From assembly GCF_008932435.1 (NCBI RefSeq), contig NZ_WBWE01000009.1:124001-188000 (forward strand): DNA of 64,000 nt, in the 5' to 3' direction. This document shows, one piece after another, positions 2,545-7,789 of this stretch; the stretch's first letter is position 1; the number at the start of each line of letters is the position of its first letter. The position numbers and the translations under genes are program-made. The notes beneath the pieces were generated by a model, which was not told the origin of the DNA, ran no database searches, and worked only from the letters and a program-made list of their open reading frames with translations. The stretch is from Brucella pseudintermedia (lineage in GTDB: Bacteria > Pseudomonadota > Alphaproteobacteria > Rhizobiales > Rhizobiaceae).

Positions 2545-5049
<2,505 letters not shown>

Positions 5050-5100
5050 GATCTGCTCTTTTCAGCACTGCTCTTGAATTATGTTGAGCAAGGTCTACAT

Positions 5101-5117
5101 CCGCTAGTGACTAGAGG
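5101..5117. promoter_or_regulatory. MerR-family operator between metal ATPase gene and its regulator
   Basis: The 17-bp sequence CCGCTAGTGACTAGAGG is a near-perfect dyad (CC.CTAGT.ACTAG.GG), resembling ZntR/CadR/PbrR operators. In the ATPase direction it lies between TTGCTC and TAGACC, 19 bp apart, the elongated spacer typical of MerR-activated promoters. The site is 12 bp upstream of the regulator's ATG and about 50 bp upstream of the ATPase start, so one site probably serves both genes. Confidence 0.65.
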
Positions 5118-5129
5118 AGCAAGCGCAAA

Positions 5130-5555
5130 ATGATCACAAATGTAGCAATCGGCGAAGCATCGAAGGCTAGCGGCGTGAAGGTGCCGACAATCCGCTATTA
5201 TGAGCAGATCGGCCTTCTGCCGGTGCCGCCGCGCACGGAAGGCAATCGCCGCCTTTATGACCGCAACGATGTGCAGCGGCTCGTTTTCATCCGTCACGCC
5301 CGCGATCTCGGTTTCGAAGTGGATGCCATCCGCACGCTTCTCGATCTTCAGGACAATCCCGACCAGTCATGCGCGGCAGCCGATGCCATCGCACGCGCGC
5401 GCCTGAGCGATGTGGAGCACCGCATCGCAAAACTGCTCTCGCTCAAGACGGAATTGCAGCGCATGCTGGAATGCACGGCCCATGGCCGCATCGACCAGTG
5501 CCGCGTGATCGAAATCCTCGGCAACCACGAGGAATGCGCGCATCACACGCACTGA
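5130..5555 (+). CDS. MerR-family metal-responsive regulator (ZntR/CadR-like)
   Basis: Transcription factor expected to activate the divergent metal ATPase gene on binding Zn, Cd or Pb. An N-terminal winged-helix MerR domain (VKVPTIRYYEQIGLLP, residues 17-32) is followed by the dimerisation helix and a metal-binding C-terminus. C81, C115, H118 and C124 fall where ZntR has its zinc ligands C79, C114, H119 and C124, and the tail adds C136 and three histidines. Length (141 aa) is normal. The ATG follows GAGGAG, which overlaps the operator dyad, so binding could also affect the gene's own expression. Confidence 0.9.
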   Translation: MITNVAIGEASKASGVKVPTIRYYEQIGLLPVPPRTEGNRRLYDRNDVQRLVFIRHARDLGFEVDAIRTLLDLQDNPDQSCAAADAIARARLSDVEHRIAKLLSLKTELQRMLECTAHGRIDQCRVIEILGNHEECAHHTH

Positions 5556-5577: not shown

Positions 5578-6408
5578 TCAGTTCACCTTGGAAAAGCGGG
5601 TAGCCTGGATCTTGAGCGTGCCGATCTGCGTGCCGATCCGCGCCACCACGGGCGCATAGATGCCGGAATTACCAAGCGAGGCGAAGGAAATCGTCATCCG
5701 GCTGCGATTGCTGAGGTAATCGATGGCCTTCTTGCCCTTCTGATAACCGGAAATCGGGATGAATTTCGCCGAGCAGATGACCGATTCGCCGGTAAAGCCA
5801 TCGGTCGTGAACGATTCGGTACCGTTGAAGGAAAGCCTGATCTCCGCACGGGTCTGGCCGTCGAAGACGCTCAGCGAACGATCGCAGACTGCGCGGCCAT
5901 TCTTTGCCGGTATCATGAGCGCGCTCAGCGGATCGCTGACATTCTGCAGGTCCTGCGGCGAGGTTTCCACCCAGGGGTCGCGCTTTTTCACTGGAGGCTG
6001 GTTTTCAGCCGAGACCACATTGCCATTGGCGAAGCGAATGGTAGTGCTCTTGTTCTTGCGGCCATGCTTATAGGCCAGATCGAAGCTCTTCGGCACGACC
6101 TTGCCGCTGACGGCGCTGCCGGTAACGTGAACGGTGCCGTCCGTATCATCGAACACCCGCGCCAGACCGGAAGTCAGAAACCGGCCATTGAGATTGTAAT
6201 TCGCGCCATTGACCGTAGTTTCTATAGCGGATCGTGCAATGGAAAGCCCGAAAATGGAAATATCGTACTCGGTCCGGTAGAGATCGTCGGCTCTGGCTGG
6301 TCCACTCGCAATCGCCGACCCGGCAATCACGAGTCCCGCAAGGGTCGGGACGATGCAACGCGCCAGACGGTTTCGAGCAGTTTTCAACGCATGCGACGTT
6401 TCGATCAT
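5578..6408 (-). CDS. DUF3108 domain-containing secreted protein
   Basis: Member of the DUF3108 family, periplasmic or envelope proteins of unknown role found across alphaproteobacteria. The N-terminus has a long signal sequence (hydrophobic VPTLAGLVIAGSAIA, predicted cleavage near GPARA-DD). The rest is a beta-rich domain with the family's typical ISIFGLSIARS start. Three in-frame starts exist; the ATG at 6408 is chosen because GGAAGGA lies 9 bp upstream, whereas the ATG at 6417 touches that box. It converges with the merR gene, with only 22 bp between stops. Function is unknown; family assignment is by recognised sequence pattern. Confidence 0.75.
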   Translation of the reverse strand: MIETSHALKTARNRLARCIVPTLAGLVIAGSAIASGPARADDLYRTEYDISIFGLSIARSAIETTVNGANYNLNGRFLTSGLARVFDDTDGTVHVTGSAVSGKVVPKSFDLAYKHGRKNKSTTIRFANGNVVSAENQPPVKKRDPWVETSPQDLQNVSDPLSALMIPAKNGRAVCDRSLSVFDGQTRAEIRLSFNGTESFTTDGFTGESVICSAKFIPISGYQKGKKAIDYLSNRSRMTISFASLGNSGIYAPVVARIGTQIGTLKIQATRFSKVN

Positions 6409-6756
6409 GTTCGACATTCCTTCCGCCAGCTTTTCCAATATCGGTTTTCAACCACATTGGAACGCCGAAAAGTTGCGTGGGATTCTTCGATACAGTATCT
6501 GTGCAACAGGCAAAACCGGCGAAGTTATGATTGCAAGCTTTCGTGAAGACCATGCGAAAGCCGGAAAACCGCGTCTTTGCGCGATGGATACGGAATCTCA
6601 CTTGACTGCAACGGCTGCTGTCACTATAGAAACGCGACTTTCCCAATAGGCCGCCTGTCCGAGATCGCGCGCCAGCAGCATCAAACTGCGTTGATTGCTT
6701 GAATTCGGACATTCGGGTCGGGGCCTGAAAAGAACGTAATTGAAGGTGAGACCAAA
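6409..6756. other. divergent intergenic region upstream of rpmB
   Basis: This 348-bp region separates the leftward DUF3108 gene from rightward rpmB. It contains a strong promoter for rpmB (6602-6630) and the rpmB ribosome binding site. Open frames crossing it on either strand lack start signals and family features. Nothing else was recognised. Confidence 0.5.
6602..6630 (+). promoter_or_regulatory. sigma-70 promoter of rpmB
   Basis: TTGACT at 6602-6607 and TATAGA at 6625-6630 are separated by exactly 17 bp, each differing from the consensus hexamer at one position. It lies on the rpmB strand and predicts a leader of about 120 nt. This is the clearest housekeeping promoter in the window. Confidence 0.65.
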
Positions 6757-7053
6757 ATGTCCCGCGCTTGTGAATTGACCGGCAAGTCGGTCCAGTACGG
6801 CAACAATGTCAGCCACGCGAACAACAAGACGCGTCGCCGCTTTCTGCCGAACCTCTGCAATGTTACGCTGATCTCCGAAACGCTCGGCCAGAGCTATCGT
6901 CTGCGCGTCTCCGCCAACGCCCTGCGTTCGGTTGAGCATCGCGGCGGTCTCGATGCGTTCCTCGTCAAGTCTGACGACAAGGAACTCTCGCAGCGCGCTC
7001 GCCTGCTGAAGCGCCAGATCGCCAAGAAGCAGGCTGAAGCAGCTGCTGCCTAA
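6757..7053 (+). CDS. rpmB: 50S ribosomal protein L28
   Basis: Component of the large ribosomal subunit. The 98-residue sequence begins [10 protein letters not shown], followed by the conserved [19 protein letters not shown] stretch and an Ala/Lys-rich tail, all typical of alphaproteobacterial L28. The longer C-terminus compared with E. coli L28 (78 aa) is usual for this group. An AAGGTGAG ribosome binding site precedes the ATG. The gene is transcribed alone from the promoter at 6602-6630 and closed by a strong terminator. Confidence 0.97.
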
Positions 7054-7075
7054 GCTTTCGGCCAAATGATTTGAC

Positions 7076-7105
7076 AAAAAAGGCCGGCTTCTGTCGGCCT
7101 TTTTT
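7076..7105 (+). terminator. intrinsic terminator of rpmB
   Basis: AAAAAAGGCCG at 7076-7086 pairs with CGGCCTTTTTT at 7095-7105, giving an 11-bp stem followed by the U-run. It ends 1 nt before the candidate preQ1 aptamer of the next gene, so transcription of that gene needs read-through or an overlapping promoter. A TTGACA at 7071-7076 is present but lacks a clear -10 partner. Confidence 0.85.
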
Positions 7106-7106
7106 G

Positions 7107-7135
7107 CTGGTTCCATCACCCAGGATAAAAAAATG
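7107..7135 (+). promoter_or_regulatory. candidate preQ1-I riboswitch overlapping the start codon
   Basis: The 29 nt fit a minimal preQ1 class-I H-type pseudoknot. P1 is CTGG (7107-7110) with CCAG (7120-7123), and the loop begins TTC (7111-7113). The C at 7119, just before the 3' P1 strand, matches the ligand-pairing cytosine of known aptamers. The A-rich L3 strand is GATAAAAAA (7124-7132), and P2 would pair CAT (7114-7116) with ATG (7133-7135), the start codon itself. The downstream gene is a YhhQ-type queuosine-precursor transporter, a known type of preQ1-regulated target. Ligand binding would hide the AGG at 7122-7124 and the AUG, shutting down translation. The fold is inferred by eye. Confidence 0.6.
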
Positions 7136-7789
7136 TCAATCGAGACACGTTCTTATTCCCGGCTTATGCCTGCGATACTGGCCATGTGCGTGGCGGTTGC
7201 CGCGTCGAACATACTTGTCCAATATCCGTTCCAGCATTTCGGCCTCGGGGAAGTGCTGACCTACGGTGCCTTCACCTATCCTGTCGCCTTTCTGGTCAAT
7301 GACCTGACGAATCGCCGCTTCGGCCCTGCCGCGGCGCGTAAAGTGGTCTATGCCGGTTTCGTACTGGGCGTCGTGATGTCGATCTGGCTGGCAACCCCGC
7401 GCATCGCGATTGCCTCGGGCTCCGCTTTCCTCTTCGCACAGCTGATGGACATTACTGTCTTCGACCGCCTGCGCCGCAAGACCTGGTGGAAGGCTCCCTT
7501 TGCCGCCGCCATGTTCGGCTCGGTGCTCGATACGATTCTGTTCTTCTCGATTGCCTTCGCAGCCGGATTTGCGTGGATCGACACGCTCACGGGAATGCCC
7601 GATTCGTCGCTTGTCGAACCGGCGTCCTTCCTCGGCCTCGGCGTGCCGCTCTGGGCTTCGCTCGCCTTCGGCGACTTTTTCGTGAAGGTCATCATGGGAA
7701 CGCTGATGCTCATTCCCTATGGAGCAATCCTCGCCGTCTTCGCCCCGGCGCTTTACGCCCCAAATCGGATTACAGCGGAGAAGCCATAA
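7133..7789 (+). CDS. queuosine precursor transporter (VUT family, YhhQ-like)
   Basis: Integral membrane protein of the COG1738/VUT family, which imports preQ0/preQ1 for synthesis of the tRNA modification queuosine. The 218 residues contain about six hydrophobic segments and the family patterns ASNILVQYPF, TYPVAFLVNDLTNRRFGP (residues 45-62), a conserved aspartate before TILFF, and FGDFFVKVIMG near the C-terminus. The ATG at 7133 lies in an A-rich tract and has only a weak AGG upstream, in keeping with control by the overlapping preQ1-like structure. It stands alone between two terminators. The specific substrate is inferred from family and riboswitch context. Confidence 0.88.
   Translation: MSIETRSYSRLMPAILAMCVAVAASNILVQYPFQHFGLGEVLTYGAFTYPVAFLVNDLTNRRFGPAAARKVVYAGFVLGVVMSIWLATPRIAIASGSAFLFAQLMDITVFDRLRRKTWWKAPFAAAMFGSVLDTILFFSIAFAAGFAWIDTLTGMPDSSLVEPASFLGLGVPLWASLAFGDFFVKVIMGTLMLIPYGAILAVFAPALYAPNRITAEKP

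Follow-up and report, generated by a model that had tools for sequence, protein, structure and literature searches.

A stretch of 29 nucleotides ending in the start codon of a YhhQ-type transporter gene in Brucella pseudintermedia (positions 7107 to 7135 of the window, by which we mean the whole 64,000-nucleotide stretch analysed) is a real, deeply conserved RNA, and we consider it to be a preQ1-I riboswitch that acts as a translational OFF switch and belongs to a subtype sequestering the start codon, with a probability of roughly 0.82. The putative pseudoknot with the AUG in helix P2, the covariation with codon 2, the link to the transporter gene and the conservation throughout the family are supported by sequence comparison. 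We infer preQ1 as the ligand, the OFF direction of control and the exclusion of the ribosome. The features discussed below are as follows.

7075 to 7106, plus strand: terminator-like hairpin of rpmB, its A- and T-tracts paired (fold -22.1 kcal/mol, z -7.6)
7107 to 7110, plus strand: 5' strand of P1, CTGG (window sequence; alignment of 37 distinct sequences)
7111 to 7119, plus strand: aptamer loop TTCCATCAC, 9 nt, numbered U5 U6 C7 C8 A9 U10 C11 A12 C13
7114 to 7116, plus strand: 5' strand of P2, CAT, predicted partner of the start codon ATG (family comparison)
7120 to 7123, plus strand: 3' strand of P1, CCAG (window sequence; alignment)
7122 to 7125, plus strand: AGGA, half within P1, 7 nt 5' of the ATG (window sequence)
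7124 to 7132, plus strand: L3, the A-rich strand GATAAAAAA (mean 1.91 bits; final A's required by the descriptor)
7133 to 7135, plus strand: 3' strand of P2, the yhhQ start codon ATG (window sequence; frame conservation)
7136, plus strand: position +4, first base of codon 2, T in the window (partner of loop base 7 if loop base 6 is G)
7133 to 7789, plus strand: YhhQ/Vut_1 transporter gene, 218 aa (PF02592, 80.5 bits)

A preliminary description had read a preQ1-I layout in these 29 nucleotides, and its components, the P1 stem CTGG/CCAG, the C at 7119, the A-rich strand and CAT opposite ATG, are all present in the window sequence. The layout with the AUG in P2 is upheld by the family conservation, the compensation in P1 and the covariation between loop and codon 2 described below, with one amendment: the AGGA at 7122-7125, which we take to be Shine-Dalgarno-like, also lies within the element. 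The predicted P2 pairs are C7114-G7135, A7115-U7134 and U7116-A7133. P1 is short (4 bp) and folds alone at -3.4 kcal/mol (z 0.15), no stabler than shuffled sequences, and the case is therefore built on comparison and not on folding energy. A fold of the 65 nucleotides at 7101-7165 favours another hairpin over P1, which we set aside because the downstream bases are poorly conserved.

Upstream of yhhQ in the window is rpmB, the gene for L28 (6757-7133 region). The element had been placed 1 nt after the rpmB terminator, and it does begin one base after the T-run, but the hairpin itself folds as 7075-7106, so that P1 starts at the very next base with no gap between them. A consensus terminator scanner reported 0 terminator-like sites and missed this hairpin, in which the T-run is part of the stem, the apparent reason for the miss, and a search of 6400-7300 found no sigma-70-like promoter. 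The terminator region 7076-7133 is weakly similar to the Rfam Brucella sRNA CII26 (23.8 bits, cut-off 218); the Thr_leader and BASRCII26 similarities near 7076-7133 centre on the terminator hairpin and were set aside. Elsewhere in the window, at 2545-5555, an apparent P-type ATPase for heavy metals, histidine-rich at its N-terminus, adjoins a divergent MerR-like regulator, as judged from the translations.

The presence of rpmB upstream of yhhQ in 198 of 200 loci, together with the overlap of a small hairpin with the ribosome-binding site, could also suit a leader hairpin that binds a protein, or a ligand-free start-codon structure, that tunes yhhQ, for example by way of L28 from rpmB or as an RNA thermometer. 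On that view there would be no reason for the loop to match that of the type III riboswitch which E. coli carries on yhhQ, nor for L3 to be A-rich, and the element sits after rpmB and not before it. We regard this explanation as very improbable.

The family comparison draws on a protein-guided scan for YhhQ, from which the best 80 of 339 relatives were kept, and on a survey of 247 genomes of the Rhizobium/Brucella family, in which yhhQ was identified in 234 and 130 leaders, mostly the better-scoring ones listed, were read. With three plasmid-borne yhhQ copies added, this amounted to 213 family loci in total, some species being represented twice. A fixed descriptor, which itself requires an ATG, a run of A's and some of the loop positions, U5 among them, and leaves loop base 7 and +4 free, identified the element at 201 of the 213 loci; these correspond to 188 distinct 360-nt stretches and include two spurious or eroded loci (L069, L263) and same-species duplicates from two collections. 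The 12 loci without it are L073, L078, L080, L273, L275, L278, L292, L303, L307, L316, L334 and L337. In the family survey the element was present at 120 of 130 loci and in 62 of 67 genus codes, and a lighter descriptor allowing any loop and ATG, GTG or TTG likewise recovered 120 of 130. A strict test of four P1 pairs, C as the last loop base and three P2 pairs was passed by 196 of the 201 loci; the five that failed are L069, L070, L072, L075 and L263, four of them in Bartonella records, and the L263 leader is the same as that of L069.

The 29 nucleotides are nearly invariant against nearly random flanks. In 112 family loci that align without gaps (9-nt loop, 9-nt L3), P1, L3 and the AUG carry on average 1.9-2.0 bits per column and the loop 1.6; the descriptor that chose these loci partly fixes the values for those columns that it constrains (start codon, A-run and some loop positions). 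The flanks of the same loci carry 0.13 bits in the 40 nt upstream, 0.15 at +4 to +12 and 0.44 at +13 to +45. The A-rich L3 is also visible in the raw leaders, unfiltered by the descriptor. Conservation also covers the specificity C and the equivalents of the L1 U and of the L3 adenines, U5 and the A-run being seen with the lighter descriptor as well. The UU after the 5' strand of P1 is UG in 70 of the 201 loci, and the AC before the 3' strand is CC or UC in some. At 200 of 201 loci the reading frame that begins with the ATG runs for 179 aa or more without a stop, and the ATG is thus very likely the true start codon.

Several loci depart from the common pattern. In Bartonella-type genomes the element decays stepwise while yhhQ is kept (L069, L070, L072, L073, L075, L078, L080, L263, L273, L278), and together these loci form a natural series of riboswitch loss. 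Genus code g437 (L303, L316, L334) has kept yhhQ with no element and no QueF match in all three genomes read. Three leaders with G at loop base 6 (L335, L336, L348) have a 10-nt loop with an extra A before the specificity C. Rhizobiaceae-type yhhQ genes with the element were also identified in a record titled Bacillus subtilis SK6B4 (L049) and in a Comamonas MAG (L003), which are probably mislabelled or contaminated assemblies.

The preliminary description had called for an alignment of orthologous leaders, and this bears out compensation in P1 and retention of the A-rich strand, with CAT/ATG pairs that are formed though they scarcely vary. There are 40 distinct sequences of the element, and alignment A1 holds 37 of them (L069/L263, L072 and L075 were excluded). 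P1 is paired in 100% of its cells, and two of its four pairs are compensated, by CCGG/CCGG in L286 and CTAG/CTAG in L288. When the pairing partners were slid out of register, pairing over the whole structure fell from 91% to 20-56%; further pair types were no more frequent than in shuffles (133 of 500 as high). The P2 pairs at columns 8-31, 9-30 and 10-28 are formed in all lettered cells and scarcely vary within the family, which leaves three of the four P2 pairs scarcely variable.

The fourth pair is where variation is informative. Of the 201 loci, 70 have G at loop base 6 (G6), and in every one of these 70 the bases at loop position 7 and at +4 match as a Watson-Crick pair (61 G/C, 6 C/G and 3 A/T); all 70 are distinct stretches. 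The 129 loci with TC at loop bases 6-7 have any base but G at +4 (53 C, 40 A, 36 T, 0 G); the two eroded loci have TT at these positions. Counted on the 188 distinct stretches, the G6 numbers are unchanged (61, 6, 3) and the U6-C7 loci have 43 C, 40 A, 34 T and 0 G. On a FastTree phylogeny of YhhQ from 200 loci, from which L277 was left out because of its short frame, the U6 part (tree length 16.5) requires 23 or more changes at +4 and the part with the 61 G6-G7 loci (length 13.8) requires 0, where the U6 rate predicts 19 changes (Poisson probability of zero, 4e-9). In the same G6-G7 part, +5 changes 21 times and +6 28 times, and codon 2 encodes Leu, Arg, Gln or Pro; as the residue varies, it is the first base that is held and not the amino acid. 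Within the 69 G6 rows, loop base 7 changes four times and +4 four times, jointly in all four. Phylogenetically independent contrasts number only one to three pairs, so few that a sign test cannot reach 0.05.

This match between loop base 7 and +4 argues that P2 takes in the start codon with three or four base pairs, and the comparative data give strong support to a pseudoknot whose P2 contains the start codon. The window element has T at loop base 6, and no fourth P2 pair would be expected in it. It might still be asked whether such conservation could reflect no more than a strong, conserved start context and ribosome-binding site without any switch, since AGGA, an A-tract and ATG make a good initiation region. 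That account would leave the conserved upstream half CTGG..CCAT, the compensation in P1 and the 70 of 70 pairings of loop base 7 with +4 unexplained, and we give it next to no credence.

The nearest known relative is the preQ1-I type III riboswitch on yhhQ in E. coli, in which, according to the available passages of PMC10622847, the P2 pairing CCU/AGG buries the Shine-Dalgarno sequence. The E. coli leader reads TTGGG-TTCCCTCAC-CCCAA with the tail AAAAAGGT, and its linker GGTTAATC before AAAAAGG is that of the wild-type type III riboswitch, the one crystallised, in the same source. The two elements have in common the gene family, the loop UUCC-N-U-NAC, the AC before the 3' strand of P1, an A-rich L3, an H-type pseudoknot, three Watson-Crick P2 pairs and the lack of a separate expression platform; the UU after the 5' strand of P1 and the AC before its 3' strand, a type III trait, are both present in the window. 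By alignment with the E. coli structure, as far as it is presented in those passages, C13 at 7119 is predicted to be the ligand-specificity cytosine and U5 the conserved L1 uridine.

The differences lie mainly in P2. Whereas type III, as described in the passages of PMC10622847, has the Shine-Dalgarno sequence in P2, the predicted P2 here is CAU/AUG on the start codon and the Shine-Dalgarno-like site falls in P1 and L3. Aligned position by position, U11-A28, C10-G29 and C9-G30 of E. coli correspond to U10-A(+1), A9-U(+2) and C8-G(+3) here, and the middle pair differs on both sides, a change that in this alignment retargets P2 from the Shine-Dalgarno sequence to the AUG. In addition, P1 has 4 bp compared with 5 bp in the E. 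coli leader by our own pairing, and a subset of the elements here has G6 and a predicted fourth P2 pair into codon 2, in contrast to type III in the same source. When 299 genomes of the phylum were searched with a pattern that leaves both middle bases free, 36 places were chosen by eye from those listed and the rest were judged to be chance; among the places listed, all 27 with ACCCC after the loop, which lie outside the class, combine CCCU with AAAAAG(G), and the 9 from the same family combine CCAU with AUG. Type III is described in one passage of PMC10622847 as almost exclusive to gamma-proteobacteria and in another to proteobacteria, and in the accessible parts of the review PMC11625349, which distinguishes three preQ1-I subtypes, as almost exclusive to Pseudomonadota with the Shine-Dalgarno sequence in P2; the element here belongs to an alphaproteobacterial family. 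The working would be like that of type III, but the P2 partner is the AUG and not, as in that subtype, the AAGG of the Shine-Dalgarno sequence, and we therefore class the element as a start-codon-sequestering variant of preQ1-I.

Other small riboswitches are more distant. Type II preQ1-I riboswitches (B. subtilis queC, T. tengcongensis), as covered in the available text of PMC11625349, likewise have the AC before the 3' strand of P1, an A-rich L3, the specificity C and an H-type fold, but that of T. tengcongensis buries the first two Shine-Dalgarno bases and that of B. subtilis controls a terminator, and neither is described there as pairing with the AUG. The loop of the E. coli type III riboswitch is tighter than that of T. 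tengcongensis. SAM-II and SAM-V riboswitches are also H-type pseudoknots near start codons that directly occlude initiation, but they differ in ligand, sequence and genes, and the descriptions available speak of occlusion of the ribosome-binding site or closeness to the start codon, not of the start codon as a P2 strand. The terms "start codon" and "AUG" are absent from the available text of PMC11625349 and PMC10622847. No published description of this element was found in the titles, opening parts of abstracts and selected passages, with few subscription journals among them, of the literature on preQ1 riboswitches, alphaproteobacteria and start-codon pseudoknots, and we think that it is unpublished.

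The Rfam database offers little guidance. When the 64-kb window was searched at the Rfam cut-offs, only a tRNA reached its own, and in a permissive search of 401 bases the nominal preQ1-I family RF00522 gave a match over 7101-7140 with an E of 8.9 and a score of 12.2 bits, the cut-off being 39. The preliminary description had named the lack of a covariance-model match, together with a lack of conservation or compensatory change in related genomes, as evidence against a riboswitch; the former is true at the cut-off (12.2 versus 39 bits), the latter false. In searches of equal size (401 bases, E up to 10), RF00522 matched neither the E. coli yhhQ leader nor the S. meliloti leader, and it matched none of five gamma-proteobacterial and five Rhizobiaceae leaders at E of at most 1. 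A model that fails on type III of E. coli as well does not discriminate, so Rfam cannot decide here, and the current model is blind to the element in the leaders tested.

A covariance model built from the element's own relatives gives one match in the genome and a single match in each of the 15 same-family genomes with a match. Outside the family (249 genomes of the order and 378 of the phylum), covariance model R1 gave only four weak matches, L358, L359, L366 and L367, in searches run with stricter filters that drop weak matches; they were judged to be chance, with no loop recognizable by eye, although L366 does end in CCAGGATAAAAAAATG. Within the class, Vut_1 was matched in 146 of 289 genomes, and descriptor scans of 80 other alphaproteobacterial Vut_1 loci, from which 30 further class loci (L082-L111) were left out, yielded no convincing copy. 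The first descriptor gave only chance-looking matches at the class loci, and a relaxed descriptor that found 90 of 100 family loci matched there only at L133, which was judged to be chance. An early pattern search also matched in G511, G365, G370, G366 and G296. The bearers of the element belong to family code f1 of the Alphaproteobacteria.

The downstream gene connects the element to queuosine metabolism. The window YhhQ is 31-32% identical to proteins annotated as 7-cyano-7-deazaguanine/7-aminomethyl-7-deazaguanine transporters, and a PDB search with the protein gave no match. The element stands directly before this Vut_1/YhhQ gene, a queuosine-gene association by position in which control is putative. 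The proposed tie of preQ1-I aptamers to queuosine transporters agrees both with this YhhQ relative and with the placement of yhhQ under preQ1 riboswitches in other bacteria, as stated in the passages available of PMC5372724. The genome itself (G000) encodes QueF, TGT and QueC. TGT was identified in 53 of 55 chosen family genomes; yhhQ was likewise unmatched in the two that lack it, and a further two of the 55 without yhhQ have TGT and QueF. A strong QueF match, counted above 80 bits, was obtained in 22 of 41 element-bearing genomes versus 1 of 10 that have yhhQ and no intact element (Fisher 0.015, kinship ignored). This excludes a partial match in G449 (27.9 bits, just over the curated cut-off), with which the comparison becomes 22 of 41 versus 2 of 10 (Fisher p 0.08). 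These numbers hint that the switch is lost where preQ1 is not made.

In the remaining 19 of the 41 element-bearing genomes, those without a strong QueF match, preQ1 would need to be imported. This leads to the question of whether the same start-codon pseudoknot could have another natural ligand, at least in the G6 subtype, such as preQ0, queuine, guanine or another 7-deazapurine. In the 70 G6 loci (of 201), the G takes the place of the counterpart of U7 in E. coli, which contacts preQ1 as part of a U7-A27-preQ1 triple, and YhhQ salvages preQ0 besides preQ1, both according to passages of PMC10622847. On the other hand, the family has preserved the counterparts of the L1 U, the L3 adenines and the specificity C, and the E. 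coli type III relative strongly favours preQ1 over preQ0, as stated in the abstract of its description. We consider a different ligand unlikely, though less so than the other alternatives, and preQ1 the likely one, judged by resemblance and gene context. In the U6 type, +4 is free and yet never G. In E. coli type III, C8 and U11-A28 are both located in the ceiling of the pocket (PMC10622847); the U6 type retains C7, the counterpart of this C8, and a G at +4 could draw C7 out of the ceiling, which would account for the absence of G.

We propose the following mechanism for the preQ1-I riboswitch. When preQ1 is abundant, the ligand would sit between P1 and P2, paired to C7119, and lock the H-type pseudoknot in which the CAU of the loop pairs with the AUG. 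P2 would comprise three pairs, or four in the G6 lineages by including the first base of codon 2. With AGGA located in the 3' strand of P1 and in L3, the 30S subunit would have access to neither the Shine-Dalgarno sequence nor the AUG, and YhhQ, which imports the precursor, would not be made when preQ1 suffices. In the absence of preQ1, P2 would open and translation could start.

It is possible, although we put this forward tentatively, that the element represents a fourth preQ1-I subtype in which coding sequence is part of the aptamer, with a G6 branch whose remodelled pocket may read another 7-deazapurine or another concentration. If so, in about one-third of the loci the RNA would hold the first base of codon 2 while leaving the amino acid free, and G6 would both replace the counterpart of a ligand-contacting uridine and add a fourth pair to P2. 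The Shine-Dalgarno-like site lies outside P2, and the element would be a clean system for asking whether hiding of the AUG suffices for control. Our findings suggest that a double base change can re-aim one compact aptamer fold from the Shine-Dalgarno sequence to the start codon, and that a riboswitch may constrain the second codon of the protein under its control.
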